From Novipirellula aureliae (lineage in GTDB: Bacteria; Planctomycetota; Planctomycetia; Pirellulales; Pirellulaceae), in assembly GCF_007860185.1 (NCBI RefSeq), contig NZ_SJPY01000002.1, forward strand, positions 316,374 to 380,373: 64,000 bases of DNA, in the 5' to 3' direction. Shown here piece after piece: positions 27,648 through 56,383 of this stretch (positions are counted from its first letter, which is position 1; the number at the start of each line of letters is the position of its first letter). The notes under the pieces are model-generated. The model worked only from the letters and a program-made list of their open reading frames with translations, made no database searches and was not told where the DNA came from. Made by a program: the position numbers and the translations under genes.

Positions 27648-28090
27648 TGGCTGTCGAAATAAAACGATCGGCGGTCGCCGGCACACTCAGTCTGACGCCG
27701 CTCATCGACGTTGTGTTTCTGTTGCTCATCTTCTTTCTCGTCACCAGCGAGTTTGAAGAACAAGAGCGGCGTTTGGATATTGTCCTACCCACCGCGACAA
27801 GTGCCGTGCCGATGACCAGTAAACCTCGCGAAGTGGTTGTCGATATCGATTCGGAAGGGACCTTGTATCTAGGTGGCGAAGTCACATCGATCGCGAAGCT
27901 AAAAACGTTGCTCGACGCCGCAGTGGCCAGCAACCCAACCAATCAAACCGTTGTCATTCGTGCGGATCAAGCGAGTTCATTTCAGCCCGTCGTTAGCGTC
28001 ATGGATGTTTGCAATCGAACAGGAGTCAGTGATTATTCAGTAACCACAACCGAAGGCCCCGCAGACGCTGACGCGTCCGCCAACCGATAA
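27647..28090 (+). CDS. ExbD/TolR-type proton channel subunit
   Basis: 147 residues, normal for the family. A short cytoplasmic N-terminus precedes a single helix with the essential proton-relay aspartate (LTPLIDVVFLLLIFFLVTS, Asp at about residue 21). A periplasmic ExbD/TolR domain follows (VVVDIDSEGTLYLGG, VVIRADQASSFQPVVSVMD). The ATG overlaps the stop of the ExbB-like gene. With TPR, ExbB-like and cyclase-like proteins it makes a four-gene unit. The next gene starts 88 bp downstream. Confidence 0.94.
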   Translation: MAVEIKRSAVAGTLSLTPLIDVVFLLLIFFLVTSEFEEQERRLDIVLPTATSAVPMTSKPREVVVDIDSEGTLYLGGEVTSIAKLKTLLDAAVASNPTNQTVVIRADQASSFQPVVSVMDVCNRTGVSDYSVTTTEGPADADASANR

Positions 28091-28178
28091 GTGGTAGCCA
28101 AGCTTTTGCCGATTCCCGTCGCCGACCGGAATCGCCAAAAGGCTGGACTCCAATCACTCCTAAAGGAAAAATCTGAAT

Positions 28179-33973: not shown

Positions 33974-34705
33974 ATGAACAGCCCCTCGAAAAAAAATTTG
34001 CCTGATAAAGGCCCATCCAATCCCTCTTTACCGTTGGTCGAGCTCGAAGATGTCAGTCGACATTATACCGATGGTGATGTGATGGCCCTCAACCACGTCA
34101 GTCTGTCGATTCGTCACGGGGAATTTTTGGCAATCGCCGGACCAAGTGGCTGCGGGAAATCAACGCTTCTCAATATGATTGGCGCCCTCGATCGCCCAAC
34201 GTCGGGAAGCGTCCGATTTTGTGGAAAAACCATTGATGCGACGATGAATTTGGACCGATTGAGGTCGCAGCAAATCGGCTTCGTATTTCAATCTTTTTAC
34301 TTATTGCCCAATTTGACCGCAGAGGAAAATGTGCAGTTGCCAATGTTCGGAATCGAGCCTGATGCCAAAAGACGAACGGACATAGCCAAAGAACTATTGA
34401 GCGAAGTCGGGCTTTCAGACCGCATGAAGCATTTTTCATGGCAGCTTTCCAATGGCCAACGCCAACGCGTCGCAATCGCTCGTGCGTTGGCCAACCGCCC
34501 CGTATTGGTTCTGGCCGATGAGCCGACCGGAGCACTCGATTCGGAAAGTGGAACGAGCGTCATGCGACTCTTGACTCGATTTTGCCATGACCGCGACCGT
34601 AGTCTGGTCGTCGTCACCCACGACAACTCGGTAGCCAAACAAGCTGACCGCGTTGTGCAACTTCACGATGGCAAAGTCATTCGTGACAAGGCGAGCGGCC
34701 GATAG
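33974..34705 (+). CDS. ABC transporter ATP-binding protein, LolD/MacB type
   Basis: The 243-residue protein has Walker A GPSGCGKST, a Q-loop in FVFQSFYLLPNLT, signature LSNGQRQRVAIARAL (third position Asn instead of Gly), Walker B VLVLADEPTGALD, and the H-loop VVVTHD. The spacing and GALD D-loop are typical of LolD/MacB/FtsE-type ATPases that work with FtsX-fold permeases. A permease of exactly that fold lies at 45697-46944, at the other end of the PKS/NRPS operon and on the opposite strand. The two probably form one exporter flanking the cluster. No membrane-fusion protein is seen. The gene is convergent with the NRPS gene across a strong palindromic terminator. Confidence 0.93.
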   Translation: MNSPSKKNLPDKGPSNPSLPLVELEDVSRHYTDGDVMALNHVSLSIRHGEFLAIAGPSGCGKSTLLNMIGALDRPTSGSVRFCGKTIDATMNLDRLRSQQIGFVFQSFYLLPNLTAEENVQLPMFGIEPDAKRRTDIAKELLSEVGLSDRMKHFSWQLSNGQRQRVAIARALANRPVLVLADEPTGALDSESGTSVMRLLTRFCHDRDRSLVVVTHDNSVAKQADRVVQLHDGKVIRDKASGR

Positions 34706-34714
34706 GAAATTCAT

Positions 34715-34771
34715 GTCGTGGATCTTGTTGAAGATCCTGTCGCCTTTTGGATCTCTAACAAGATCCACGAC
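34715..34771. terminator. Bidirectional terminator between ABC ATPase and NRPS genes
   Basis: A perfect 15-bp inverted repeat (GTCGTGGATCTTGTT at 34715-34729; complement at 34757-34771) surrounds a 27-nt loop. On the plus side it is followed by GGTTTTAAAATAC. It sits in the 82-bp gap between convergent genes, 10 bp after one stop and 16 bp from the other. The U-tract is imperfect, so efficiency is uncertain. Confidence 0.65.
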
Positions 34772-34787
34772 CGAAGGTTTTAAAATA

Positions 34788-37700
34788 CTATCGGACGACT
34801 GCCCATTTACTCTGCACCAATTGCTTCGCCAACTCAGCAACATGCGGTTGCGACAACATACTGTGGTGATGACCGGGGACTTTGATCACATCGACATGCG
34901 TTGCCAGTTTCGACCACCCTCGATCTAGTGGTCCCACCGTTTCGACGGGGATATCAAGGGGCCGATAGAAATCGATGGGTATCGTTAGTGGAGCGAGCCG
35001 ATAGTGATTGGCCAACTGAACGTGGTGATGAAACAGTCTCTGCATATCGGACAATGTTTTTTGCACGATTTCCTCGGGTACGTTCTCATCCAAAACACCA
35101 AGCTTCTTGGCATGTTCCCACAAAAAGGGCAACTGCTCAGCCGGAGAAAGCTGTCCGAGTTGCTCCAGTGACAGATCGATGCCATACTCGCGTCCAACGT
35201 TTTGCTCGTCCGCTGGTGCGATGAGATCGGTTGAGCCAGCGGGAATCGACGTGTCGAGCAAAATCAGCCGTATAACGTGACGTCCTTTGGCTTGCAGTTG
35301 TTTTGCAACTTCCACGGCAATCAATCCACCAAGTGACCATCCGCCGACGATCAGCGCACCATGAGCGTCGATTTGTTCAATCGCTTCGACATACTCTGCA
35401 GCCATCGTTTCGACGGTTTCAGGTAGCTTTTCATCGCCATGAAGTCCTCTTGAGCGGATTGCATAAAATGGCTGATCGACAGGCAATTGCTTAGACAAAT
35501 CACGATAGCAGACAACGATTCCGCCAGGCGGATGGACCATAAAAATCGGCGGCCTATCGCCGAGTGGTTGCCATGCCATGATTAAAGACGCTCGGTCCGA
35601 GGATCCTGACGGGGAACGCAGGGTTGATCGATCAGCTCCGAGGCCTCGATGAAGTTCCCTTAGCCTAAGTGCGAGGCCGCGAATGTCGGTTTGATCGAAC
35701 AGCAGGGCCACGGGGACTCGCACCCCAAGATCGTCGCTAAGCTTCGATGCAAGTATCGCTGCTTGCAAAGAACTACCACCCGCGTCGAAGAAATCCTCGT
35801 CGACTCGGACGTCATCTCGCTCAAGAATCTCTTTCCATCTGTCAACCATCAACGACTCGAGCGAATCGATTGGCAGCCCCGAATCGTTTGATTCCGCGTG
35901 GCTCTCCCACGATCGCTCGGCCATCTTCACAAGCGATTTACGATCGACTTTTCCATTTGCATTTCTTGGAAGTTGGTCAAGCGAATTCACTTGAGCGGGA
36001 CGTTTGAAGCGAGGCAAGTCGGTGAGCAGTCGATCGATGTTGACGGGTTCGCTATCCGCTTGCTGAGAGATGACAATGAATGCAGCAAGCACGGCACGGT
36101 CATGTTCGCCGACGACACATACCGCTGCATCGGCAACCGCTGGATCATTTCGCAAATGGTTTTCGATCTCTGCGAGTTCAATACGATACCCGCGTAACTT
36201 GACTTGGTCATCGACACGTCCCAAAAACTCAATGAGCCCATCGGCATTGACACGTCCAAGATCGCCAGTCAAATAGGCTCGCCCTGCATTTAGCGAATCG
36301 AGTGACCGAAACACTTTCGCCGTTTCCGATGGCTGGTTTAAGTACCCACGAGCGAGCCCTTTACCACAAATTGCGATTTGCCCTACCACCCCGTCGGGTA
36401 CCGGATTGAATGGGTCGTCCAGTATAACAATTTCGCTTCCTGAGATCGGCGTGCCAATCGGGACCGGCTTTCTCGGATCGTGATTGAGCGGTGTTTGGTA
36501 GGCGGTGGCTTCGATCGCGGCTTCGGTCGGCCCATAAAAATTCCAGAGCGACGGATTGCTAATCTCGCGCAGCAAACGCGGCAGATCGGTCGGCATCGGT
36601 TCGCCACCGGTCCAAATTTGCTTGAGCGTTTGAACGCGTGAGAAACGAGGATGCGATACGATCACTCGCAAAAAGCTTGGGTTGGCTGCCAAAACGGTGA
36701 TTCGCTGGTCGACCAAGGTATCGATGATGTCATCGAGATCGGGAACCGATGGTGAGGATCGCCTGGGCCAAATGATCGTGGCCCCTTGGTGAAGCGCCGT
36801 TAAGAGGATGCCTAACCCAGCATCAAATTGATGCGACAACAGCGAGATCACGCGATCTTTTGAAGTCAAAGGGACATTTTGCCGGCGCCACGAAAGCGTG
36901 TTGGCGATCGCAGCATGTTCAATCATGACACCTTTTGGACGCCCCGTTGAGCCCGAGGTATAGATCACATAAGCCAAGTCATTCGGGGCGTTCGAAATGT
37001 CGGGAACCGCCGGAGCATGCTCCGATTCGGATAAGACCGATCGGATATCGATGGTTTCGAAATTCGACTCGTCTACATTGCTCGTTCCGTCCAAGTCGAG
37101 TGGACGGTCGGTGATGACGACGACCGGCTGAGTATCGGCAAGCCAAGAGGAAATTTCGAGGGAAGGATGGTCGGCATCGAGTGGCACAATCGCCGCACCA
37201 CTTTGCACAACCGCACGAAGTGCGATGGCGAAAAGAGGACCGCTGGCCATAACAACGGCCACGTGCTGATTGGCCTGCACACCAAGACTTAGAAGCTTTG
37301 CCGTTAAACGATTGCATAACCGCCGAAAGTGCCTGGGTGAATACTGACAATCGGTTGGGCCACCGAGTAGATTGGCAGTGTCACTTCCCGCCTCGAGTAA
37401 AAAGCCGAGCGTTGCTCGGTCGGATGGCAAGTCGACCGGCGCGTCGACCGGCACAACCGGTTGAGCTTTTTGGATTGGCCAAGCAATCGATGAAACTCGG
37501 TTTTCCGATTGTTGGAGCAGAGTGAGAGTCAAGCGTTGGAAATTGTCACGAAGCCTACGCATCGAATCATCACGAAACAGATCGGTACAGTAACAAACCA
37601 TCCCGCCAATTCGCTCTGCAGCCGTATCGAAAACAAACTCAATGTCGTAATGACAGGTCGGGTGGGAAATCGGGAACGGTTGCTGTTGCAATCCCCCCAT

Positions 37701-38924
37701 CTCGACGCTAGTGGTTTGCGATGGCATCAGAAAAGCAGCGTGATTCGATTTCGATTTCAAGTGCGAGTTTTCGAACGTACAGAGCGATTGAACCAACGGA
37801 GCTCGGCTCGTATCGCGGGGGGGGTTGGCATCTTTAACCATTTCGGAAAATGGATAGCGTTCGTGATCCAGCCCCAACAGCATGTTCGAAGCGGTTTGCT
37901 GAACCAATTCGCCGAAGCTCCGATCCTCTGATAAATCGGCTCGCATCGGCAACACATTTGAAAAATAGCCAACCGTGTTTTCGAATTGCCGCTCGCTCCG
38001 TCCTGATGATGAAAGTCCAATTAGAAAATTCTCTTGCCGACTGTAGCGTCCGAGCAAAACCTGCACCGCTGCCAACAGAACAGCATTGGTCGTCACGCCA
38101 CACTTTTTGGCGAAACCGCGAATGGTACTTGAAGTTTTCTTTTCAAAACGGATCGCGGTTGAACGAGCTTGGCCGCTGAATTTGCTCGGCCTCGCAAAGT
38201 CCAGTGGCAATTCAAGCGCCGTATCGACACCGGCGGTTTGAGATTGCCAATAGTCTCTCGATCCAATGCATTCGTCAGATTCCAAAAACTCGCTTTGCTT
38301 CCTAGCGAAGTGCGAATAGTTGTTAATCGGTTCGGCGAGCCTAGGTGAGCGACCGACCAAAAGGGAGGGATAGATCTCCTGAAGCTCTTCCAGGATCAAC
38401 ATCAACGACCAAAAATCGGTGACGATGTGGTGTGCTGTGGCGACCACGACCGATTCCATATCGCCAGTATGCCAAACCGATAAACGGAGCAGTGGACCGT
38501 TTTCCAGGTCGAAAGGCCGTCGAACCTCTTCGAGCACGCGGTGGCGAAGTTCCTCATCGCTAGCCCCGATTGCTAGCTCCGTTCGGATTTCCGGAGGCAA
38601 GGATGCATGAACGGTTTGTTCTAGTACCCCATCACGATCTAAGAATGTCGTTCGAAGTGAGTGATGACGTTCAGCCAAACGATTCATCGTCTTCGTAAGC
38701 GTTTCGACATCCAATCGGGATCGAATACGCGAGGGCAAGAACACATTGTAAGCGGTTGAATCTGGATCACGACGATAAGCGTGCCAAAGCCCCTGTTGCT
38801 GAGCCGACATGCAAAACCGGGTCACAGCTTTCGCTTTGTCTCGTAGCAAACGTTTCAGAAGCTCCCGTTTTTCGGATGGCGACAAATCGGCTAACGACAG
38901 AGGTTGTGGAATCGATTCGCTCAC
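34788..38924 (-). CDS. Nonribosomal peptide synthetase, C-A-PCP-TE
   Basis: 1378 residues in four domains. The condensation domain (about 38-470) has catalytic AHHIVTD; the Gly after Asp is Phe in this enzyme. The adenylation domain (about 500-990) has A3 YTSGSTGRPKG, A5 NFYGPTEAAIEAT, A7 LTGDLGR, A8 GRVDDQVKLRGYRIEL and A10 NGKVDR. The carrier domain has GGSSLQAA with the phosphopantetheine Ser at about 1048. The C-terminal thioesterase (about 1140-1378) has nucleophile GWSLGG at about 1195. By-eye pocket residues (D, A, G, S, I, T, F, I, E) match no substrate I can name. It would add one amino acid to the polyketide delivered by the PKS and release the product. The start GTG overlaps the PKS stop (GTGA), so translation is coupled. 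Confidence 0.95.
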   Translation of the reverse strand: MSESIPQPLSLADLSPSEKRELLKRLLRDKAKAVTRFCMSAQQQGLWHAYRRDPDSTAYNVFLPSRIRSRLDVETLTKTMNRLAERHHSLRTTFLDRDGVLEQTVHASLPPEIRTELAIGASDEELRHRVLEEVRRPFDLENGPLLRLSVWHTGDMESVVVATAHHIVTDFWSLMLILEELQEIYPSLLVGRSPRLAEPINNYSHFARKQSEFLESDECIGSRDYWQSQTAGVDTALELPLDFARPSKFSGQARSTAIRFEKKTSSTIRGFAKKCGVTTNAVLLAAVQVLLGRYSRQENFLIGLSSSGRSERQFENTVGYFSNVLPMRADLSEDRSFGELVQQTASNMLLGLDHERYPFSEMVKDANPPRDTSRAPLVQSLCTFENSHLKSKSNHAAFLMPSQTTSVEMGGLQQQPFPISHPTCHYDIEFVFDTAAERIGGMVCYCTDLFRDDSMRRLRDNFQRLTLTLLQQSENRVSSIAWPIQKAQPVVPVDAPVDLPSDRATLGFLLEAGSDTANLLGGPTDCQYSPRHFRRLCNRLTAKLLSLGVQANQHVAVVMASGPLFAIALRAVVQSGAAIVPLDADHPSLEISSWLADTQPVVVITDRPLDLDGTSNVDESNFETIDIRSVLSESEHAPAVPDISNAPNDLAYVIYTSGSTGRPKGVMIEHAAIANTLSWRRQNVPLTSKDRVISLLSHQFDAGLGILLTALHQGATIIWPRRSSPSVPDLDDIIDTLVDQRITVLAANPSFLRVIVSHPRFSRVQTLKQIWTGGEPMPTDLPRLLREISNPSLWNFYGPTEAAIEATAYQTPLNHDPRKPVPIGTPISGSEIVILDDPFNPVPDGVVGQIAICGKGLARGYLNQPSETAKVFRSLDSLNAGRAYLTGDLGRVNADGLIEFLGRVDDQVKLRGYRIELAEIENHLRNDPAVADAAVCVVGEHDRAVLAAFIVISQQADSEPVNIDRLLTDLPRFKRPAQVNSLDQLPRNANGKVDRKSLVKMAERSWESHAESNDSGLPIDSLESLMVDRWKEILERDDVRVDEDFFDAGGSSLQAAILASKLSDDLGVRVPVALLFDQTDIRGLALRLRELHRGLGADRSTLRSPSGSSDRASLIMAWQPLGDRPPIFMVHPPGGIVVCYRDLSKQLPVDQPFYAIRSRGLHGDEKLPETVETMAAEYVEAIEQIDAHGALIVGGWSLGGLIAVEVAKQLQAKGRHVIRLILLDTSIPAGSTDLIAPADEQNVGREYGIDLSLEQLGQLSPAEQLPFLWEHAKKLGVLDENVPEEIVQKTLSDMQRLFHHHVQLANHYRLAPLTIPIDFYRPLDIPVETVGPLDRGWSKLATHVDVIKVPGHHHSMLSQPHVAELAKQLVQSKWAVVR

Positions 38925-41900
38925 GACGTCGTTTCCGGGGGCATATATTGAGAGGCCAATTCCGCCAACAAACGGTCGACTTGGCCGTCATCCATTTGAT
39001 CGACCGTCTCATGAATTTGTTGAGTGGCACCGGTGACATTTGTTTCGTCGCTTGAGGCCGAATCCACAACCGTCGATGGAACCGGGGACGGCATCCCAAT
39101 GAACTCGATCGTTTTCGCAGCAATCAACTGAATCGATGCACCACGCATCAATTCAGACAACGGCATGGAAATTTGAAATTGACTTTCAATCCAATTACGT
39201 AGTTCGACCGCCATCAACGAGTCGAGCCCCAGTTCCAACAAGCTCCGACCGCGATCGATTTGCTCCGCCCTAAGGCCAAGCAGCACTTTCAACTTGCTTG
39301 TCAGCATTTCTTCGATCTGATCATGCTGTTCCGATGAATCGACAAGAAGCAATTGCTCAAGACTGAATACTTGACTTGAATCCGCCCCATCGTTTCGGAT
39401 CAGGTGGACGAAGCGGGGTGAGACATTTTGCGTCAATCCCAACCCTCGCCATAAAGACCAATCCATTCTAAGCACGCTCGCCTGTATCGCGTCGGTAGAC
39501 AACAAACTTTCAAGGCACTGCGTCGCTTCCCTAACGCTAAAGCTAAGCACCCCCTGCCTTTCAAGCCGAGCCCCTAGTTCTTTCCGCTGAGCGAGGTAGC
39601 CGACTTCGCCGAGATGCCCCCAATTCACTACAAGGGCGGGCAAACCTTTGGATCGGCGGAGGTAAGCAAGCCCATCGAGTGCCGCGTTGGCCGCTGCGTA
39701 GTTGGCTTGTCCAGCATGTCCAAAAATGCTTGACAACGACGAGAACAAAACGAACTGATCGAGCGTCTCGGGGACGATTGTTTTATCGAGCGATGCGCGA
39801 TGTAGATTCCAACCGCCCACGACTTTCGGATTCAATACTCGATACAATGTCGGCGAATCCAAATCCTCAAGCAAGCGATCCTCCAGAACCATTGCCGTAT
39901 GATAGATTCCACCGAGCGGAGGAAGTACGTTGTGGATGTGCCTCAGTGTATCCGCCACCTGCTCATACACCGTAACATCGGTCCGCCGCAGCGTAACGGT
40001 CGTACCAAGCGATTCGATCTGGTCGATCGTTTGACGCTGTTGAGCATTCGGACTTGTGCTCCGTCCACTTAGTACCAAATGCCCCGCACCACAGCGAGCC
40101 ATCCAAAGGGCGATTTCCAGCCCGAAACCACCAAGTCCACCAGCGATCCAATAGGTTTTCTCTTTCGAAAACAGCTCGCTTTGACCCATCGACAAACGAT
40201 CGCTTGCATTCGGATAAATTTCAGAAGGTGATGTGGGATAGCTTACCGAAACCTTACCAATATGTTTTGCCTGCTGCATGTAACGAAACGCCTCCTTCAC
40301 ATGATCCGCATCAAAAGATCGGAGCGGCAGCGGTTCGAGTTCGCCCGTTTCGAAGCGTGTCGAAAGCCGCCTCAATTCCGTCCCCATCGATTTCGGGGCA
40401 GTCGTGAATAGCTGATCCAAATCGATAGCAAAGAAGGCAAGGTTATTCTTAAAGGGCGCCAAGTCGAGCGACTGATCGCCGTAGATATCACGCTTACCAA
40501 TCTCCAAAAACCTGCCGCCCGGTTTCAATAGCGTCAAGCCTTTTCGAATCGCCTCGCCCGGCAGCGAATTCAAGATCGCATCGACCCCTTCGCCAGAGGT
40601 TTGCTTGCGAACGTTGTCGGCAAACTCTAGACTTCTTGAATCGCCGATCGACTCGACACCCAAAGCACGCACGAAATCGCGTTTTTCGTCGCTGCCGGCA
40701 GTCGCATGAATCTGCAATCCGATTTGCTTGGCCAACTGAATGGCTGCCAAACCGACGCCTCCGCTTGCGGAATGGATCAGAATCGATTCACCAGACCGCA
40801 ATCGAGCACAATGGTTGAGGGCATAGTCCGCAGTCAAAAACGCGATCGGAATCGTGGCCGCTTGATCGGCGGTTAACGTACTAGGTTTGCGAGCAATCAG
40901 TGCTTCGTTAATGACCGCATGTGTTCCAAACGACCCTTTTGCGATCGCGATCACCTGGTCCCCCACCTCCCATTGCCTAACAGCATCTCCGATGCTAACG
41001 ACTGTACCGCAACATTCGGCTCCCAGCATAACGGGCCCATCAGGCAACCCGGGATAGAGATCGAGTGCCTTCATCACATCGCTAAAATTCAAACCTGTCG
41101 CATCGATTTCAATCCGTACCTCATCGGGCGCAAGCGGAGCAGTATGCAGCGTTTCGTATCGCAAATCTCCGATACCGCTGGTGCGCCCCATCGCAAGCCG
41201 ACAAGACTGTGAACGATGTTGCCCCACTTGTCTACCTCGTCGAGGCAAGGGGACCGAATAATTCGGCACGAAACGGCGAACATGCCGAACGCCATCCCGA
41301 TAGAGAATTTCATCTTCGGAATCGTCTAGCGAGAGTTCTTCGAGCAGCGACGCCAACTGCTCTGACACACTGCTTCGAGGTAGATCAACAAGACGAGTAC
41401 GTAGCAGCGAACACTCGCTAATCAATACTCGCCCCATTCCGATCAGTGGCGTTTGGCAATAGGTGATCGTGTCCGGTTCTTCGTCACTTGACTGAGCCTC
41501 CGTCGTCACAATCATGAAACGAGGAATCATCGTGTTGGCGTTGGAATCGCATGAAGCCTCTTCGCGTTTCCGCTGCCACGCTTGAATAAATGCCAAGGGT
41601 GCTTCACAAGTCGTTGCCAGACTCTCAATGACATCGTGTTCGGATTCAATCGATTCATCGACATCCAATCCCCAAGCAAAAGCAACGTCGGTGATGGTGT
41701 CGATTGGAATCGCTGCGAGCAAACGATCCCATTGGGGACCTGCCTCCGCATTCACCTCATACCGTTTATTTCGGTTAATCGCAAACGATTCACCCTGCCG
41801 AACCTGATACACTTCTTCGCCATCGAGATGTTGGATAAGACTTTGTGACAACTCATGCTGGGCCCCAAAGATCAACCATCGCCGCTCCTTCGGAATCTCC

Positions 41901-44900
41901 GATTCGCTTTCTGTCGAAACGCTTGGCTCCCATCGATAACGGTACAACAAGTCCGCCAACCGCTCCGACACCGCTTTCGAATTTGCGACACGACTTTCGA
42001 AGCCTTCGATGACGGCAACGACATTCCCTGCTTTGTCCCAAAGGGTCAGATCGGCGAGCATGCGGTAGGCATCCTTGAACCGAATCTGGGTGTAGACCTG
42101 CAAATCCGTGCATCCGCGTCCACTCGCATTGCAGCGGATCGTCGCGATACGGTGCGGCAAGTACAGGCCGCCCACCTTGTAATCAAACAATTCATCGGCC
42201 ACGATCATCGAGTGGAAACAGGCATCTAGCAATGCAGGATGCAGGATGTACTGGCTCGCCTCGTCATGCAAAGACTCGGGAAGTCGAACGTGGACGATTG
42301 CTTCACCTTTTCGGCGGACCCCATCGACAACGCCTTGAAAACTCTTTCCATAATTCAACCCGAGTTTTTCACAGTAGTCATAACAGCGACGGGCTGATAC
42401 CGTTTCAATCATTCCTGCTCGAACGGTTGCCTCGTCGAACGAGTCAAGAATCGCTGAATCGTCACCGCTAAGCGAAATGGTTGCCAAGCGATGCCATTGG
42501 TCCGAATCAGGTTCTTTGAATCGCAGCTCCATTCGATTTCGATCACCGCGATAAGTTGTCGATAAATTGACAGCACGATCGTTATCGAGGACCAAGGGTT
42601 GGTGAATCGAGAGATCGTCCAGCCGAATCGATTCGGTTCCTTCGTCAGCGACCGAGGCCGAAACCGCTAGTGCGGTTTCGATAATCGCAGCAGCCGGAAA
42701 GAGGCAATGATGACGGACTTGATGATCGGCCAGATAAGGATGCGTTTTCGTCGACAACTGGCACCGCCATGCGGGATCAGGATTTCCCAAGCGGGTGTCG
42801 AGCAGTGGATGAAAGTCAGGTTGCAATCGAGTACGTCGCGATTGATCCGATTCTGCCCACAACCGTTCGCGTTCAATCGGGTAGTGAGGCAACCGTAGTC
42901 GCTGCTTTGGCCGATCGGCAATGACCGACCAATCGATCGGCGCATCAACTTGATAAAGTTTTGTGAACGCTTCTCGAAATGCTGTCACGTCGTCGACATC
43001 ACGATGCATCGACGAAACGGTATGAATCGACTTTCCAACCTTGGCAAAGCATTCATTGATCGAGTAGGACAAGACAGGATGTGGACCGAGTTCGATGGCA
43101 ATCGCGAATCCCTGTTCAGCAGCAGACTGCATCGCCGGTGCGAACAAGACACCCTGTCGAACATTGTCCCACCAATAGTTGGCATCGGTCGTCGAACTTG
43201 AATTGCCGTCGATTGGGCCACCCATGATTGGGGCACCCGTGATTGGGGCACCCGTTACCGTTGAGATCATCATCGTATGCGGAGCGTGCGGTGTGATGCC
43301 GGCGAGCGAGCGTTTGAGTTCGGCTTCGACAGGATCCATTTGAGGACTATGAAATGCATACTCGACAGCCAAGTGACGACAGAAAACACCTCGTGATAGT
43401 AGACGATCCGCGATTTGGTGAACGGCATCCGTATCGCCCGAGATCGTGACACTTTCGGGACCATTGACGGCAGCAAGCGACAGCAGATTTTCTCGCCCCG
43501 CAATCATTTCACGAGCTTCGTCCGCTGTTATTCCGGCAGCGATCATCGCGCCGTGCGAGCTTGCCAAATCCATCGTTCGTCCGCGATGGACGGCGACCGT
43601 ACAAGCGTCCTCCAACGACAAAGCGCCCGACAAATAGGCTGCGGCAATCTCACCGACACTGTGCCCGACAATCGCTGACGGGCGAATACCGAACTCAGCC
43701 CATTGTGCTGCTAAAGCGACCTGAATCGCAAACAATGCAGGCTGAGCGATCGAGGTTTCCTGGAACCGGGATTCCGATTCGCTCCGATGCATCTCCTTGA
43801 CTAACGACCACTCGACATGGCGAGCAATTTCTCGATCACATCGATCGATGGTTTCTTTGAAACTGGAATTCGCTACATACAAACGGCGTCCCATCTGGCA
43901 ATACTGAGCCCCCTGCCCGCAGCAGACAAACAGAACCCCCGTTTCTCGCTGCGATTTGGAAACCGCTTGATCTTTGGAAGTCTGTTCCGATTGGAGCTTG
44001 CGTAAACCGGTTGCAAATTCGTCACGGTCATGGCCGAACACGACCGCTCGAGCACGCAGATGACTACGTTGATGGCTGGCCGCGCCGACGACATCTTGTG
44101 GACGAAGCGCAGAGCGAACCGTGTCCTCCTCGAGCCAATCGGCCCACTGGTTGGCGACAACCGGTAGACGTTCGGGTGAATGGGCCGACACAGGCAAAGG
44201 GAGACCGACTTGATGGTATCGGTGGCATCCTGCCGCCGGACTTGGATCGGATGATTGGCAAAGTGGCGGCAGGATGCCACCATTACGAGAGACGTCTTCG
44301 ACCACAACGTGTGCGTTGGCCCCGCCGTAACCGAAGCCATTGATGCCCGCGATGCGGCGACCGGAGATCGTATCCCAAGGCGTTGTTTCAAGTGGCAACT
44401 GCAGATGGTTTTCGGCAAATTGGATTGCTGGATTGAGGGATTTGAAATGGAGATGTTTGGGAATCGTTCGATGCCGCATCGCCAACGCGACCTTCAACAC
44501 GCTGGCGATCCCCGCTCCCGCTTCGAGGTGCCCAATGTTCGTTTTGACACTGCCGAGATAGCAGGGACTTGACCGCTGCGATCCCTGAAGCGTTGCATTT
44601 CCAATCACATTTCCAATCGCGGCAGCTTCAATCGGGTCTCCGACCGGGGTTCCGGTGCCGTGAGCTTCGACGTAACTCACCAAGGTGGGGTCGATCTGAG
44701 CAGCGCGGTAAGCCGCCCGCATCAGATCTTGCTGAGCATTTTGGCTGGGCACCGTCATCCCGTCGGAATGGCCATCTTGATTGATAGCCGTGGAACGGAT
44801 AACACAATAGATATCGTCCCCATCGCGAACCGCATCCCGATAGCGTTTGAGGGCGACGATGCCAGCCCCTTCGCTGCGGACGTAACCGTCCGCTCGTGCG

Positions 44901-45601
44901 TCAAACGTCTTGCAGCAACCATCGGGTGACAAGACACCGAGCTGACTAAACGCCACGAAAAAGTCAGGTAGTAACAGTGCATTGACTCCACCCGCCAACG
45001 CCATATTCGCGTTCCCCGATCGCAGGCTTTCGCACGCCATATGGAGAGCAACGAGCGAGGAGGAGCAAGCGGTGTCAACGGCTACACTGGCACCGCGCAG
45101 ATCAAAACAGTAGCTGATTCGATTCGCCGCAATGCTGCTCGAACCACCGGTATTGCTATAAGCTCCCAAGACGCTGCGATCTTCAAAACTAAGCGATGCA
45201 ACGGAGTAATCAATACTACTAATGCCGACAAAGACCGACACCGGTTGGCCAGCGACCGTTTCGACGGGAACGCCGGCATCCTCGAACGCTTGCCAGCTTG
45301 CTTCGAGCAGCATGCGTTGCTGAGGATCCATCGCGGCGGCTTCTCGTGGCGAAATGCCGAACAACGGAGGATCAAAACCGTCAACCGCGTCGACATAGCC
45401 TCCCCAGCGGCTGTTGGTCTTGCCCGGCTTCACCTTTCCCGCCGAGTAAAACTTGTCCACGTTCCAGCGGTCGGCTGGCGTTTCGGAGATGACACAACGC
45501 CCATCGCGGAGCAGTCGCCAGAATTGTTCGGGCGTATTTGCACCCCCTGGGAAACGACATCCGAGTCCGATGATGGCAATCGAATCGGGTTGCTTATTCA
45601 T
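38921..45601 (-). CDS. Highly reducing type I polyketide synthase, KS-AT-DH-psiKR-ER-KR-ACP
   Basis: 2226 residues. KS (about 6-430): active DTACSSS, His in EAHGTGTP and NIGHLEAG. AT (about 555-870): GHSVGE and YAFHS, which favours malonyl-CoA. DH (about 930-1200): DHQVRHHCLFP, where the usual Gly of HxxxGxxxxP is His; partner Asp in HPALLDACF. A structural half-KR lies at about 1240-1470. ER (about 1477-1795): HSASGGVG for NADPH. KR (about 1815-2000): GGLGGFG, catalytic FSSLSS and NYAAAN, with LED at the LDD position (B-type-like). ACP: LGLDSLMAVEL at about 2126. All reductive activities are present, so a saturated chain is expected; whether it acts once or iteratively is unknown. The ATG at 45601 (MNKQPDSIAIIGLG) is preferred over a TTG at 45634. 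It lies in an operon with the permease upstream and the NRPS downstream. Confidence 0.95.
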   Translation of the reverse strand: MNKQPDSIAIIGLGCRFPGGANTPEQFWRLLRDGRCVISETPADRWNVDKFYSAGKVKPGKTNSRWGGYVDAVDGFDPPLFGISPREAAAMDPQQRMLLEASWQAFEDAGVPVETVAGQPVSVFVGISSIDYSVASLSFEDRSVLGAYSNTGGSSSIAANRISYCFDLRGASVAVDTACSSSLVALHMACESLRSGNANMALAGGVNALLLPDFFVAFSQLGVLSPDGCCKTFDARADGYVRSEGAGIVALKRYRDAVRDGDDIYCVIRSTAINQDGHSDGMTVPSQNAQQDLMRAAYRAAQIDPTLVSYVEAHGTGTPVGDPIEAAAIGNVIGNATLQGSQRSSPCYLGSVKTNIGHLEAGAGIASVLKVALAMRHRTIPKHLHFKSLNPAIQFAENHLQLPLETTPWDTISGRRIAGINGFGYGGANAHVVVEDVSRNGGILPPLCQSSDPSPAAGCHRYHQVGLPLPVSAHSPERLPVVANQWADWLEEDTVRSALRPQDVVGAASHQRSHLRARAVVFGHDRDEFATGLRKLQSEQTSKDQAVSKSQRETGVLFVCCGQGAQYCQMGRRLYVANSSFKETIDRCDREIARHVEWSLVKEMHRSESESRFQETSIAQPALFAIQVALAAQWAEFGIRPSAIVGHSVGEIAAAYLSGALSLEDACTVAVHRGRTMDLASSHGAMIAAGITADEAREMIAGRENLLSLAAVNGPESVTISGDTDAVHQIADRLLSRGVFCRHLAVEYAFHSPQMDPVEAELKRSLAGITPHAPHTMMISTVTGAPITGAPIMGGPIDGNSSSTTDANYWWDNVRQGVLFAPAMQSAAEQGFAIAIELGPHPVLSYSINECFAKVGKSIHTVSSMHRDVDDVTAFREAFTKLYQVDAPIDWSVIADRPKQRLRLPHYPIERERLWAESDQSRRTRLQPDFHPLLDTRLGNPDPAWRCQLSTKTHPYLADHQVRHHCLFPAAAIIETALAVSASVADEGTESIRLDDLSIHQPLVLDNDRAVNLSTTYRGDRNRMELRFKEPDSDQWHRLATISLSGDDSAILDSFDEATVRAGMIETVSARRCYDYCEKLGLNYGKSFQGVVDGVRRKGEAIVHVRLPESLHDEASQYILHPALLDACFHSMIVADELFDYKVGGLYLPHRIATIRCNASGRGCTDLQVYTQIRFKDAYRMLADLTLWDKAGNVVAVIEGFESRVANSKAVSERLADLLYRYRWEPSVSTESESEIPKERRWLIFGAQHELSQSLIQHLDGEEVYQVRQGESFAINRNKRYEVNAEAGPQWDRLLAAIPIDTITDVAFAWGLDVDESIESEHDVIESLATTCEAPLAFIQAWQRKREEASCDSNANTMIPRFMIVTTEAQSSDEEPDTITYCQTPLIGMGRVLISECSLLRTRLVDLPRSSVSEQLASLLEELSLDDSEDEILYRDGVRHVRRFVPNYSVPLPRRGRQVGQHRSQSCRLAMGRTSGIGDLRYETLHTAPLAPDEVRIEIDATGLNFSDVMKALDLYPGLPDGPVMLGAECCGTVVSIGDAVRQWEVGDQVIAIAKGSFGTHAVINEALIARKPSTLTADQAATIPIAFLTADYALNHCARLRSGESILIHSASGGVGLAAIQLAKQIGLQIHATAGSDEKRDFVRALGVESIGDSRSLEFADNVRKQTSGEGVDAILNSLPGEAIRKGLTLLKPGGRFLEIGKRDIYGDQSLDLAPFKNNLAFFAIDLDQLFTTAPKSMGTELRRLSTRFETGELEPLPLRSFDADHVKEAFRYMQQAKHIGKVSVSYPTSPSEIYPNASDRLSMGQSELFSKEKTYWIAGGLGGFGLEIALWMARCGAGHLVLSGRSTSPNAQQRQTIDQIESLGTTVTLRRTDVTVYEQVADTLRHIHNVLPPLGGIYHTAMVLEDRLLEDLDSPTLYRVLNPKVVGGWNLHRASLDKTIVPETLDQFVLFSSLSSIFGHAGQANYAAANAALDGLAYLRRSKGLPALVVNWGHLGEVGYLAQRKELGARLERQGVLSFSVREATQCLESLLSTDAIQASVLRMDWSLWRGLGLTQNVSPRFVHLIRNDGADSSQVFSLEQLLLVDSSEQHDQIEEMLTSKLKVLLGLRAEQIDRGRSLLELGLDSLMAVELRNWIESQFQISMPLSELMRGASIQLIAAKTIEFIGMPSPVPSTVVDSASSDETNVTGATQQIHETVDQMDDGQVDRLLAELASQYMPPETTS
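44221..44281. repeat. 17-bp perfect inverted repeat inside the PKS KS-AT linker
   Basis: GGTGGCATCCTGCCGCC (44221-44237) is repeated as its exact complement at 44265-44281, with a 27-nt loop. It is translated into the linker between KS and AT (NGGILPPL...PAAGCHRYH), a part of the protein that tolerates insertion. It looks like a small palindromic element caught in a coding region, or a stable mRNA hairpin. Confidence 0.85.
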
Positions 45602-45696
45602 AGAATGATTCGTAAAGGTGGCTATGACGTTCAAAAAGACTACTCTGAGTATCTTAGGGTAGTTTTCAAGATCGATCGTTCAATCGTCCCCTCCGC

Positions 45697-46944
45697 TTAT
45701 CGCTCACGAAAAGCTTGAGCCGGTAGCAATTGTGCGGCCCGCCATGCTGGCAAGATCGCTCCAAACAAGCCAATCCCTACACCCATCATCATTCCTTCCA
45801 TCATGACAATGGGATCAATCACTGAATCCAACATCCCTTGGACTGCCGGCGATTGACTCAAAAGCCAAGTCAACCCAGCAGCTGCCGCGCATCCCAACAA
45901 ACTAGCGAGGATTGCCAACAAGCACGATTCGCCCAAAATCATCGCGACCACCCGGCGGCGCGACCATCCAATCGCGCGAAGAATCCCGATCTCGGCCGTC
46001 CGTTCCATCACACTGGTCATCATCGTATTGAGCGTCCCAATGGCCCCGATCATGATGGCGATCACAGACGTCATCCACGCCATCGCCGACGCGATTTGCA
46101 TCCGTGTATCGGTGGCCACAAACTCTTCGGTCGCCAGCGGCAATAGTCTGGCATCGACGGCTTTGATCCGCGATATCACCTCATCGACTTGACGAACGTT
46201 CACGCCATCTGCCACTCGAACATTCACGTACGTTACCTGACCCGCTCGTCCCGTTAATTCTTGAAGGAGTGACAACGGCACAAGCATCGATCCATTTTCC
46301 CAAGTGCTACGGCTCGTGAAAACACCTGCGACGAGGTAGGGCTGATCGAACAAGTTGACCGATTGTCCAGCCCTGATCCCCAAACGATCGGCCAGATGAA
46401 CGCCAAGCCACAGCCGATTCTCTAGGTCTTGATTCCCTAGGTCTTGATTCACTAGGTTGCCGTCTTCGAATTGAAAGTTATCCATCATCCAGGAATCGGT
46501 CGGCATCCCCATCGCGGGAATGCCGTAAACGCCTTCGTCTTCAAGTGACACCGTTTCGAGCAACATCGGTGATGCCATTGCGACCCCTTTGACATCGGCA
46601 ATCCGCTCAGCAAGCGATTGGTCAATCGAGCTGCTAAGCCGATCGGCGGAACCTTGCCTCGAAACGACAATATCGACGCCATGACTATCGTAAACGTCGG
46701 CGAAAGAGTTTTTGAAATTGCTGGCAATACCAAGTAAGGCAACGACAGCGGCAATCGCGCTCGCCAAAGCCACAAGCGTCAGGGTAGTGCGAAGCGGTCG
46801 CCTACGGAGGTTCTTCCAAATCAAAGAGGAGAAATGCACGATCTTCGGACGCTCGAGAAAGAAACTTGAATCAAATCGGAAAAGTTGCAGTCGTTTCGAC
46901 GTTGATAGTCTAACCGATTGAGCCACCTGTGATGAGTCGATCAC
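45697..46944 (-). CDS. MacB/FtsX-type ABC transporter permease
   Basis: The 415-residue frame starts at a GTG (46944); a GTG at 46839 (VHFSSLIWKNLRRRP) would give a more typical family N-terminus. The order is helix 1 (TLTLVALASAIAAVVALLGI), a periplasmic MacB-type domain of about 200 residues, then three helices (VIAIMIGAIGTLNTMM; LAILASLLGCAAAAGLTWLL; MMMGVGIGLFGAILPAWRAA) with the FtsX motif TAEIGILRAIGWSRR. It is the first gene of the permease-PKS-NRPS operon, 95 bp ahead of the PKS start. Its ATPase partner is probably the gene at 33974-34705. A short 15-bp tandem duplication (CTAGGTCTTGATTCC/A, about 46423-46452) encodes NQDLGNQDL in the periplasmic domain. Confidence 0.9.
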   Translation of the reverse strand: MIDSSQVAQSVRLSTSKRLQLFRFDSSFFLERPKIVHFSSLIWKNLRRRPLRTTLTLVALASAIAAVVALLGIASNFKNSFADVYDSHGVDIVVSRQGSADRLSSSIDQSLAERIADVKGVAMASPMLLETVSLEDEGVYGIPAMGMPTDSWMMDNFQFEDGNLVNQDLGNQDLENRLWLGVHLADRLGIRAGQSVNLFDQPYLVAGVFTSRSTWENGSMLVPLSLLQELTGRAGQVTYVNVRVADGVNVRQVDEVISRIKAVDARLLPLATEEFVATDTRMQIASAMAWMTSVIAIMIGAIGTLNTMMTSVMERTAEIGILRAIGWSRRRVVAMILGESCLLAILASLLGCAAAAGLTWLLSQSPAVQGMLDSVIDPIVMMEGMMMGVGIGLFGAILPAWRAAQLLPAQAFRER

Positions 46945-47017
46945 ATCATGGGTGCCCCAATGTTGTCTCCATTGTCACATTCGTTTTCCGATTCCTCCGG
47001 TTGATTCGAACAATCGC

Positions 47018-48136
47018 ATGTACCGTTGTTTCCTGCTTTGTGTCTTTCTTTTGTCTTTCAGCGGCTGCCGTCATTGGCCGTTGCGCGTCGACATGCTTGG
47101 CAACGTCGGCGGCAAAATGCAAATGAATGGCGACATGAATGTGACCGGCGACACTCGCGTCGACGGCACGATGAAGATGATCGGCGACTTAAATACCAGT
47201 ATCAAAGCGAACAATACCGCTTCCCCCTTGTCTCCCGTCACGGTTGAAGGAAACGCCGATTCATCCGGTCGTGTTGCCGTCATCGATGTCGATGGCTTGC
47301 TCGTGTATCAGAATGGCAGCGGCATTGGGTCGATGGGTGAAAACCCCGTCGCATTGTTCCAAGAAAAGATTCGGACGGTTGAAAGGGATCCGGCCGTAGC
47401 CGCCGTCGTGTTGCGAATTGATTCACCGGGTGGTGGAGTGACCGCGACCGACATGATGTGCGAAACACTGCGCCGATTCAAAGCATCCCGAGGCATCCCG
47501 GTCGTCGCCTGCGTTTTGAGCACCGGTGCCGGAGGTGCTTACCAACTAGCCGTTCAAGCGGATCATGTCATTGCTCACCCGACATCGATTGTCGGCGGTA
47601 TTGGCGTGATTTTGAATCTATACAGCATGGAGGATACGCTCGGCCAATACAATATCGCCGCTATCCCTGTCAAATCGGGAGAGAAAATCGACGGTGGGAC
47701 GCCCGTGCGAACGATGGAACCGGAGGAACGGAAACTACTACAAGGAATCGCGGACGAGTTTCACCAGCGATTTGTCGACGACGTCAAAACACGCCGTCCG
47801 CAGCTGGTCGCAGCAAACGATGCCGCGAAAATCGACGATTGGTTTGATGGCCGCGTCGTCACCGGCCAATCAGCAGCCGAAGCGTCCTTGGTGGATCAAA
47901 CGGGTTATCTCGACGATGCGATTCGTGTCGCAAAACAGATGGGAAACCTTGATGCCAACGCGTCGGTCGTGATGCTACGGCGTGACAACGACCGTGCTCA
48001 TACAACCTTAGACGTTACGCCAAACGAATCCCCATTAGGCTCGCTACTGCCACTCAACATTCCCGGCTTAGACCGCAGCCGATTGCCGACATTCATGTAC
48101 CTCTGGCAAATCGAACCCAGCTTCGCAACCCGCTAA
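47018..48136 (+). CDS. S49 (SppA-like) peptidase homologue lipoprotein, catalytic Ser apparently lost
   Basis: The ATG at 47018 gives a lipoprotein signal (MYRCFLLCVFLLSFSGC, lipidation Cys17). The frame is open upstream to a GTG at 46952. A Met/Gly-Asp-rich spacer is followed by the S49 domain: VAVIDVDGLLV, VAAVVLRIDSPGGGVTATD, then VVACVLSTGAGGAYQLAVQADHVIAHPTSIVGGIGV. In SppA the nucleophile lies in AASGGY(Y/W); by eye the corresponding position here is Gly (GAGGAYQ). The general-base Lys region (VKSGEKIDGGTP) is kept. It may be a pseudo-protease, unless a nearby Ser (LST) substitutes. 372 residues. Divergent from the secondary-metabolite operon. Confidence 0.8.
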   Translation: MYRCFLLCVFLLSFSGCRHWPLRVDMLGNVGGKMQMNGDMNVTGDTRVDGTMKMIGDLNTSIKANNTASPLSPVTVEGNADSSGRVAVIDVDGLLVYQNGSGIGSMGENPVALFQEKIRTVERDPAVAAVVLRIDSPGGGVTATDMMCETLRRFKASRGIPVVACVLSTGAGGAYQLAVQADHVIAHPTSIVGGIGVILNLYSMEDTLGQYNIAAIPVKSGEKIDGGTPVRTMEPEERKLLQGIADEFHQRFVDDVKTRRPQLVAANDAAKIDDWFDGRVVTGQSAAEASLVDQTGYLDDAIRVAKQMGNLDANASVVMLRRDNDRAHTTLDVTPNESPLGSLLPLNIPGLDRSRLPTFMYLWQIEPSFATR

Positions 48137-48412
48137 TTGGCTGGCTCGTAGCGTAGGCTGGGTCGACGGGCGGCGGACCCGGCATCTGCAACTTAACAAT
48201 TAGCAAACACGGGCTCGGTTTCTAGCCGAGCCTACAATGCTTGGTGTTAAGTTTTGCCCGCTAATCACGCCAATGAACGCGAATAAGAACTGACCGTCAA
48301 CGTTCTGCGTGAAGCTTGCATGATAACCACCACAGTGACTACACTCACTATTGCTTGCTGCCTTTAAGTGGTTTGGTTTTGCACAGGGGTTGTGAAGTTC
48401 ACCAAGGCGGCC

Positions 48413-48676
48413 ATGAGCATTCCGACGAAAGTATACGCCATGCGAAAACGATCATCATCGGCGAGTGGTTCCCCCGGTATCGTGGAAGGCGGATACCGGA
48501 ACTTGGTTTCAAGCGTTGAAGAAAAAGCTCGGCGAGAGGTCGAAGCTCGGTATGCTGACCAATGGAACGCGGCCGGAATGGCTGGGCGTTGGAAACTAAA
48601 ACGCAAAAGGAATGCCGAGCTTGCCGAGCTCGTGGCAAATAACATGCCCGACGTTTCACCCGACGCTCTTTTCTGA
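48413..48676 (+). CDS. Small basic protein of unknown function
   Basis: An 87-residue frame from the ATG at 48413 (MSIPTKVYAMRKRSSSASG; the frame is open upstream to 48368). It has a charged amphipathic helix-like middle (VSSVEEKARREVEARYADQW) and a basic segment (GRWKLKRKRNAELAELV). Weak AAGG upstream. Copies of a short sequence (TGTAGGCTGGGTC, and GCTTGGTGTT) flank it on both sides at about 48155-48250 and 48685-48720, so the gene may sit in a mobile or repeat-rich patch. No family recognised; it could be spurious. Confidence 0.45.
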   Translation: MSIPTKVYAMRKRSSSASGSPGIVEGGYRNLVSSVEEKARREVEARYADQWNAAGMAGRWKLKRKRNAELAELVANNMPDVSPDALF

Positions 48677-48743
48677 TGTCGTCATTGTAGGCTGGGTCTG
48701 GGGTGCTCAAAAGCTTGGTGTTCATGTGATCGTAACTTGCGGC

Positions 48744-48892
48744 CTGTCGATTTAATCGGTTTGACGCGACTGATTGTTTAACGCCAAGCCATAGGCGACC
48801 GATTATGAAAAAGCTGACGCCTTCGGCTAAGCGTTAAACGATTAAATCGACAGGCCGCTATCGCCAAAACGGCTAATGAATCATCCGGGCTA
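48744..48892. repeat. Nested palindromic element, copy E (overlaps a stop codon)
   Basis: The 110-bp core is at 48744-48853 (orientation as copy A). It is followed by GCTATCGCCAAAACGGCTA (48857-48875) and the outer end ATGAATCATCCGGGCTA (48876-48892). The final CTA (48890-48892) is, on the minus strand, the TAG stop of the giant envelope protein gene. The left outer flank seen in A and C is missing. The long palindrome immediately after the stop could also act as an mRNA 3'-end stabiliser. Confidence 0.9.
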
Positions 48893-51800
48893 AACCTCAT
48901 TCACTGGTTTCAGCGAGAATGTTAGTGCTGCGGCGAGAAAGGCTAGAAGGGCGAGTGCGACGGCCGCTTGCCAAGGATTGAGTCGAAATTGTGAGCCAAA
49001 GTCGAGATCGAGCTCGAGCGGGGTGTTCTCGGCGACTTGCACGCTGCGGCTGAAGCTGTAGACCGCACCTTCTTCCGGCAAGCTGATGATGATTGCCTGC
49101 GGAGCGGGTTCGGTGGTGCGTTGATGCTGGACCAATCGACCGGCGATCTGCTGTAAGACGGCGTTGTCTTCGGTGGTGTTCCCTTGAAGCAACTGACTCA
49201 GCTGCTGCGGACGAAAGTTCAATGCATCTTGCTGGAGGATTGGATTGATCGCGGCGGCCTCGCGCAGTTGCTTGTTGTCCGTCAACGCGTTATCGGTTGC
49301 TTTGTTGTCGAGATAGAGACGCTGGCGGCGCGTATTGAGTCCGACGATCGCTTGTTGCGTTTGCAAATTCTCTAACTGGACGCGTGCGTCTTCGTTGGAA
49401 GCGGCGTCGAGCGCGTACTGATTCGCGACACTGTTGAGCGCCCAACTGGCCTTGGTCTGTTCGCCAGCCTGGAGAAGTTGGTTTGCTTGTTCAAGCAGCC
49501 GAGCGGCGTTTTGTGCTTGGGCTTGCCGTCTGCTACTCATTTTCGACAAGTACGAACTTCGGTCGTAGTGCCCCTGATTGGCCATCCCAATCAGCTCGAG
49601 ATTCCCATCATTGTCGGTTAGCAAGAATCCTTCGGGCGCGACAACGTTCCACTGGATATTCTCCAGGGGCACGTTTAGCTCGGGACTGGTTAGATTTAGA
49701 TTTCCCAAGCGATCTCCGGTTACCGTATAAACAAATCGAACGGTTGCCGTACGGTCGTCGATACCAGGCAGAATGTAAAATTGCCAAGCATTGGCATCGT
49801 CTCCTAAGCGAATTGAGTTCACACTTTCTCCATTGACAAAAATGCTGAACAGCTCGCCGCCCTCGGGCAGACCAACGGTCAGGCTGCTACGCCGGATGAC
49901 CTCCATCGTCACGTCGACCGCCGTCAATTGATCACCGGTCGGTGACAGCACGGTGGTTAACAGCCCTTTGGCGACGCGCAGCTTGAGTGCGTCGGCAAGC
50001 GAATGTCGCTGGGTATGAATCGTGAGCGAATCGGTGGGCGTCATCGCGCGGAGCGTTAGCGCCGGAGCGTTTCGATTTCCCGAATTACGTAGTGATGGAG
50101 GAACGGTGTTCCAGTCAGCACGCTGCCATCCTTGCGACAGCGGATCGTGCTCCAACTCGAGCCGTCCACCAGCGCGGACCGCAAAATAGTAGGCGAGCTG
50201 TCGAGCTTGAGGGAATCCGGCTGGGATTAGCGTTTCGTCGTCATTTTCGCGGTCTCCACGCCGTTCGTATTCGATTCGAAAATCAACTCTGCCGACAACA
50301 CGACGCTTGAACTGGACTTCCCAAATATTGGAATCGGGTGCCGTCCGAAGGAAGTCGCTGACCGTGTCACCAGTGGCGCGAAGCGTTCTGGTCTCGTCAT
50401 CGCTCGTCATCGGCAGCGTCACCTGCAACGTTCGAATCGAAGCGTTCTGTATGTTGAAATTGGCGATCAAGGCTGAACGCGTCTGACCCTCTCGCAGAGT
50501 GATTTCATGCAACACATGACCGGTCACCCAAGGATCGAGTTTTTCAATGCCGAGTACCAAATCCCAATCACGTTGCAACAACCGAAACGCGAGTGAACCT
50601 TGTGCCATGCCACCCAAGGTACGAGGATCCGTCTCCGAAACGTTTTGGCGTGAGACCGTTCTCAATCGAATACCGGTCGTGGGCCTTACCACAAGATCGC
50701 CCGATTGGCGATCAGCTTCGTTTAACTGGAAATGCGGGACCTCCCAGTCGCCGGCATCGGTGGGTGCGAGTCCCGACAATGTCAGAGAGAAACTTTGCGA
50801 CCCGATGGTTTTCCCGTTCAAATGGAGAATGATTCGACGCTCGTCACCTTCGCTCAGTTCAGCCCAATGGTGAAGTGCTGCGCCCGAAAGCGACTCGACC
50901 TCCAGCCCCTCTGGCAAAGGAAAGCTCAGTTGGAACAACCCAGCTCTGGAAATTTGGGCGGTAAAATTGACGCCCAGGACCACGCGTTCGTCGCCCAGTG
51001 AGAGCACTTGTTTGCTGATAACGCGAACTTCCGGTTCAACGGCGCCGACACGCAACACCAATTCACCGCCGTCGGCTCCATATCGATACACGCGATGCAA
51101 GACCGCTTGTTTGTTCGGTATTAAGCTGGCGTCGAAATCACCCAAGTTGACCGCCGACATTTGCTTCGACTCTAATTTCTCCGGTTGTGCATCGGAGCCA
51201 AATCCAACGGCGACCAGCCCGATCTCGCCACCAGCACCGACAACTTTCAGTGGAGCCAGATTGACATCGGCGGGCAGCGGATCGAGACCGCGCTGGGTGT
51301 CGATGATAATATCGAATGCTTTCGCCTGAACGGGCTCGACTTCCACGGTTAATCGTCCTTTGTCGGCATCGAATTGCCAGGATCCGATGGGGCCGCTCAC
51401 CTCGCTCACGGTCAGTCCTTTCGGGACAAGGATGTCCAATTCACTGACTTGGCCTTGCGAAGTGCGGATGTGAAGACGGTGACGTCCATCGACGACACCG
51501 GGACTTGGCAGGTAGAAGTTCGATGCCTCGACAAAGAATTGTGTCTCCTCCACGCTGACGTCACGAGCCTTCGGTTTGAGCATTAGGCTTGCCTTGCCAG
51601 GACCTAGCAGCACCTTGGCTTTGGTTTCGACGTCATCGGCCGGAACGGATTCGATCTGCACGGCGGTCGGGCACGTTAATTCCCAGCCTCCTTCGTCGTA
51701 GCTAACCTTGATTTGCTGGATTGACGCCGCACCGGTCAACACCGGCACGCCGACGGTTGGCTTCACCGATTCCAGCCGATATTCGAACTCTGCCTTGTAG

Positions 51801-56053: not shown

Positions 56054-56145
56054 TCTAAGTTTCCTAGGCGCGAAGCGACGGCAGGTATTCAACACTGGTG
56101 GTTTAGGGATTGTTAAGTTTTTGTGCATCGACGGTCCGTTTTGAT

Positions 56146-56326
56146 TCACCTCCACCAGCGGAGCTGGGGGAGGTCGAGCGACGCCGTTCAGGCGTACGCG
56201 AGGGAGGGGGGCGTGCTCGCTGCTCGCTGCTCGCCGTAAAGCCAGCGCGGTCGCCCCCCTCCCGGACGAGGCTTCCGCCCGTCCGGCCTCCCCCAAACTT
56301 CGTTTTGGGGAGGCGGTTAAGTTGTT
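56146..56326. repeat. GC-rich compound palindromic repeat (several hairpins)
   Basis: Consecutive hairpins are: CCTCCACCAGC/GCTGGGGGAGG near 56150-56173; ACGCC/AGGCGT near 56180-56195; a 12-bp perfect arm pair GGGAGGGGGGCG (56202-56213) and CGCCCCCCTCCC (56252-56263); GGACG/CGTCC near 56263-56283; and CCTCCCCCAAAC-TTCG-TTTTGGGGAGG near 56287-56313. It is a different family from the 110-bp-core elements and is the only copy in the window. Confidence 0.75.
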
Positions 56327-56347
56327 GACTTGTTAAAATTAAAAGAA

Positions 56348-56376
56348 CACAGCCGCTACGGTGGCAGGCGGCTGTG
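56348..56376 (-). terminator. Intrinsic terminator after the VWA gene
   Basis: On the minus strand a 9-bp stem CACAGCCGC/GCGGCTGTG (arms 56368-56376 and 56348-56356, 11-nt loop) is followed by TTCTTTTAATTTT. It lies 7 bp after the VWA stop. It suggests that transcription of the giant gene is at least partly independent of the sigma-VWA pair. Confidence 0.7.
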
Positions 56377-56383
56377 GCCATTA

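Follow-up and report, generated by a model that had tools for sequence, protein, structure and literature searches.

The window, the whole stretch of 64,000 nucleotides from Novipirellula aureliae that was analysed here (G000:C2:316374-380373, genome size 7.27 Mb), carries a minus-strand operon of an ABC permease (45697..46944; PF12704 and PF02687, MacB_PCD and FtsX), a PKS (38921..45634) with the domain order KS-AT-DH-ER-KR-ACP and an NRPS (34788..38924) with the domain order C-A-PCP-TE (PF00668, PF00501, PF00550 and PF00975). The stop codon of the PKS and the start codon of the NRPS overlap as GTGA. At the far end of the operon lies a convergent plus-strand gene for a LolD/MacB/DevA-like ABC ATPase without membrane domain (33974..34705; PF00005). 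Reading frames, strands, domains and overlap are all as described in the initial annotation of this DNA, which had set the limits of the locus at 33974-46944. These limits are too narrow and leave out two genes that also belong to the locus: P6 (33062..33904, minus strand), which encodes a secreted protein of no recognised family and is divergent from the ATPase gene, and a gene for an S49 (SppA-like) lipoprotein (46952..48136, plus strand; PF01343), divergent from the permease gene. The orthologues of the permease begin at GTG 46839, which is therefore its probable start, and comparison with orthologues likewise makes ATG 47018 the likely start of the S49 gene; for the PKS, the probable start is ATG 45601.

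In the genera g1 and g12 the genes are arranged as S49 (divergent), permease, PKS, NRPS and then the convergent ATPase. In another family, f8 (L204, from G135), the permease, a PKS-NRPS fusion protein of 3554 aa, the convergent ATPase, P6, a PPTase and S49 are all contiguous, so that S49 and P6 recur with the locus in two arrangements. The permease-PKS-NRPS order was also found in named MAGs, and in those PKS-bearing relatives that were examined, the permease and the PKS orthologue are neighbours. Since the order is kept in other genomes, a chance arrangement is excluded.

One contig carries the permease-PKS-NRPS unit twice, in opposite orientation and with identical scores (G378:C58:8845-20783 and 46039-57977), a pattern that reflects either recent duplication or an artefact of the assembly. 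Elsewhere in the window, a predicted protein of 2468 aa (48890-56296, minus strand) had no Pfam match at 1e-5 and is neighboured by a VWA/YfbK-like protein and a sigma-70-like factor. The region 23089-30995 (plus strand) encodes a TPR protein of 1138 aa and, after it, a small operon whose last product is large and looks membrane-anchored; as far as seen, it bears no relation to the PKS-NRPS locus.

Composition of the PKS-NRPS assembly line

Pfam matches and active-site motifs in the translations indicate that an intact PKS extension module, a C-A-PCP unit and a release domain are all present. The PKS (PF00109/02801, PF00698, PF21089/PF14765, PF08240/00107, PF08659 and PF00550) has neither a loading domain nor a methyltransferase according to Pfam, and it carries every domain that full saturation of the chain requires. 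The NRPS consists of a single C-A-PCP unit and a thioesterase, and the modules of both proteins are conserved across relatives. This domain content supports the earlier prediction that an acyl chain would be joined to a single amino acid and released by the TE.

The closest solved structure to the PKS is mycocerosic acid synthase (MAS) and the closest NCBIfam model is Pks2, although the PKS scores far below the Pks2 equivalog cut-off. Both MAS and Pks2 are iterative PKSs with the same KS-AT-DH-ER-KR-ACP content, and the chain length is therefore unreadable from one module; the original reading of one reducing module as one extension does not follow. The AT carries the motif YAFH, which we take to be malonyl-type. 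Unlike MAS and Pks2, the PKS is predicted to pass its chain to an NRPS condensation domain via docking tails. In the split forms, a docking-like tail resembling MDDGQVDRLLAEL closes the PKS, and the NRPS opens with a docking-like helix resembling LSPSEKRELLKRLL. PKS and NRPS are fused in family f8 and in G368, and elements of the LSPSEKRELLKRLL and MDDGQVDRLLAEL types are missing from both fused proteins examined; confinement of the tails to the split forms is the behaviour expected of docking elements.

Located by motif, the ten-residue A-domain code of the window reads DAGAWGFIEK. The other NRPS orthologues mostly have D-A-G-P-W-G-(F/L)-(V/I)-E-K, with one clear outlier, DAVQWGYCQK. A code this nearly constant points to one amino-acid substrate, which most relatives probably share. 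The code had no match in the literature searched and is not known to equal any established specificity code, so no amino acid is named. A PPTase had been noted as absent, which is true of the window; the genome, however, has three PPTase-family matches, none of them inside the locus, and in the family f8 relatives an Sfp-type PPTase (PF01648) is located inside it.

One iterative PKS joined to C-A-PCP-TE is also the architecture of the HSAF / polycyclic tetramate macrolactam systems. Compared with HSAF, the locus has an ER, its PKS and NRPS are usually split, and tailoring enzymes are not linked. The C-A-PCP-TE end and the single PKS of iterative type, which some relatives have in fused form, would suit a product cyclised by the TE in the same manner (tetramic acid or lactone/lactam), whereas an ER and full reduction usually remove the acidic carbon for Dieckmann closure, except where the final cycle goes unreduced. 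We regard such a cyclised product, which would be compatible with export, as rather unlikely.

Co-inheritance of the permease and the ATPase

A total of 396 genomes of the order were sampled. Permease matches fall into two groups, with 29 genomes scoring at least 447 bits, taken as carriers of an orthologue, and the rest at most 381; the 29 genomes are spread over three families. A PKS orthologue is present in 23 of the 29 (including G225, where it is on a contig of 3.3 kb). The ATPase adjoins the NRPS in g1, g12 and f8 and is found elsewhere in g24, g63 and G368; in total it lies away from the PKS-NRPS, often together with P6, in 11 of the 23 PKS-bearing genomes, a count in which G225 was left unplaced because its contig is short. 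In G025 the permease-PKS pair, the NRPS and the ATPase-P6 pair are on three separate contigs of at least 0.8 Mb each. The description of the locus as bracketed by the two halves of one exporter accordingly holds in about half of the relatives and fails in those 11.

In a tree of 66 ATPase sequences, those of the PKS-bearing genomes and of G241 form one clade against all paralogues (support 100/99), and membership of the clade holds whether the ATPase is linked to the PKS or unlinked. A single ATPase clade in the PKS-bearing genomes means that the exporter halves travel together, and the tree is better evidence than adjacency for treating permease and ATPase as one system. Going by their sequences, the two are complementary, co-inherited halves of one ABC system. 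Loss of export-partner linkage in relatives had been named as a result that would count against the original proposal; the linkage is indeed partly refuted, but co-inheritance stands, and the proposed MacB-like export system is supported in the form of a split MacB/Lol-like exporter co-inherited with the PKS-NRPS.

A permease with MacB_PCD and FtsX and a cognate ATPase place this system among the type VII (MacB/LolCDE-like) ABC exporters. It shares the MacB_PCD and FtsX permease and the LolD/DevA-like ATPase with the 4-TM, type VII systems MacB, LolCDE and DevBCA; the best NCBIfam models for the ATPase are MacB, LolD and DevA, with every score below the curated cut-off. In MacB the NBD is fused to the permease, whereas here the ATPase is a separate gene. 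MacAB-TolC needs a fusion protein, whereas the neighbouring genes here lack an HlyD-type domain, which sets the locus apart from that system; neither a membrane-fusion protein nor an outer-membrane channel was found in the locus. LolCDE has two different permease subunits and the locus has one, so that the genes of the locus by themselves do not make up a LolCDE system either. The S49 lipoprotein and P6 are extra with respect to MacB, LolCDE and DevBCA.

The permease occurs without a PKS orthologue in six of the 29 genomes (G241, G391, G406, G361, G349 and G331), which have distant PKSs only, or none at the cut-off used, and the orthologous ATPase is missing too in five of these six. A permease kept without the PKS, and mostly without the ATPase, can serve another purpose. 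The sixth, G241, keeps permease, S49, ATPase and P6, as would be expected of immunity genes in a non-producer, and might suggest that the four proteins form a self-protection module that clears the product from the membrane of its producer, not a secretion system. G241 is, however, a single clear case, and export and protection are compatible. The linkage of related sets to different megasynthases, described below, suits protection and export alike, and we consider protection in place of secretion unlikely.

Two candidates from the PKS-less genomes were rejected. By raw identity, those of g72 seemed to keep the same ATPase, but the tree places all five with the paralogues. The gene upstream of the permease was considered as a replacement synthase and dropped, as its sequence looks like an MFS transporter.

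The S49 lipoprotein, P6 and recurrence of the export set

The S49 protein of the locus gives a clear sequence match to the SppA proteins of B. subtilis and E. coli. When aligned to B. subtilis SppA, the window protein has Gly at the nucleophile position and Ile at the lysine position. The Ser/Lys dyad of SppA is lost in 22/22 S49 proteins of the locus, all with Gly at the nucleophile position, and is kept in 10/10 canonical SppAs from related genomes; across 28 proteins of the dead class the lysine position is occupied by Ile (21), Val (6) or Thr (1). The locus proteins differ from SppA by these changes (Ser to Gly, Lys to Ile/Val), by a lipobox with an invariant Gly-Cys and by a C-terminal motif of their own, and without the dyad they fall outside SppA proper. 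The S49 lipoprotein is thus predicted to be catalytically dead. It is the only S49 protein (E<=1e-8) in each of G000, G001, G013 and G025, where it is next to the permease, and several genera as well as a further family have it adjacent or close by. A control comparison found dead-class members unlinked to the locus in other genomes as well. One dead-class member (L308, G056:C161:2200-6000) has Ser at the nucleophile position (GASGAYY), and a further S49-like frame, 495 aa long, lies on the same stretch.

P6 had no match in Pfam or NCBIfam. In most relatives the orthologues of P6 and of the ATPase form a divergent pair, even where this pair is unlinked from the PKS; the two adjoin in the window, G002, G013 and G276, and P6 lies elsewhere in G001. 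The AlphaFold model of P6 is beta-rich (pLDDT 89.9) and found no clear fold match in the PDB (best Foldseek E 0.06, best Z 2.5), which is not proof of a new fold. That P6 acts as a carrier is speculation.

Among 56 paralogous permease loci, the stretch read also contained an ATPase in 40, a KS or C domain in 18, S49 in 13 and P6 in 7, and two permeases were present in 15. Across 16 genomes, 9/27 condensation-domain loci lie within 10 kb of a related permease against 0.17 expected (binomial 7e-14), as do 9/39 S49 loci against 0.22 expected (1e-12); these probabilities are too small, as related genomes were counted as independent, but the cases are spread over seven and nine genomes, respectively. 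Related sets of permease, ATPase, S49 and P6 adjoin unrelated NRPS/PKS genes far above chance. Similarity to LolCDE, and the 38/56 paralogous permease loci without PKS or NRPS in the stretch examined, would fit a general envelope system (e.g. for lipoprotein or lipid trafficking) whose proximity to PKS/NRPS genes is incidental. The association with condensation-domain loci and the ATPase clade that tracks PKS presence both argue against it, and we hold this reading to be quite improbable.

Proposed role of the locus

We consider it fairly probable that one amphiphilic small molecule is both made and exported by the products of this locus. Most likely they synthesise an N-acyl amino acid-like lipid and export it by a dedicated system, with product, chain length and direction of transport as we infer them. 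The PKS would act iteratively, or extend a fatty starter drawn from primary metabolism, with its carriers and those of the NRPS primed by a PPTase encoded elsewhere (a HetI-like protein on contig C1). The C domain would then amidate one amino acid with the acyl chain, and the TE would release an N-acyl amino acid or else a short, cyclic derivative. The MacB/LolCDE-type exporter would lift the product from the inner membrane, and docking, carriage or protection may fall to P6 and the dead S49 lipoprotein as non-enzymatic partners in the envelope. A broader and more tentative proposal, which we think somewhat unlikely in its entirety, is a Lol-like planctomycete route for small molecules, in which a split MacB/LolCDE-type exporter, a dead SppA lipoprotein serving as receptor at the membrane and secreted P6 as carrier would take amphiphilic PKS/NRPS cargo across the envelope and be re-used with different megasynthases.

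A planctomycete route to N-acyl amino acids is represented by the stieleriacine cluster of Stieleria maiorica, for which stand-alone N-acyl amino acid synthases using lauryl-ACP have been proposed, not a PKS-NRPS (PMC7293339). Of the Pfam and NCBIfam matches to the genes scanned in and beside the locus, none named a family of stand-alone N-acyl amino acid synthases. The conserved PKS-NRPS pathway with its co-inherited exporter is new in this particular combination, and no earlier description of the cluster, of planctomycete MacB-type export or of S49 proteins in gene clusters was found in the literature accessible outside subscription journals. Planctomycete natural products with known genes are very few. 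A conserved assembly line whose adenylation code hardly varies is a concrete target. With its dead protease relative and its protein of no recognised family, the export set that recurs here can serve as a marker for further clusters in the order, and it poses a testable question on how lipid-like products move across the planctomycete envelope.

At L215 (8422-11001) and L220 (1-2454), of g72, ATPase paralogues adjoin a distant NRPS-like gene and genes that, judged from sequence, are ketoacyl-synthase-like and desaturase-like. This arrangement is conserved in two genomes and is another candidate cluster with the same transporter family.
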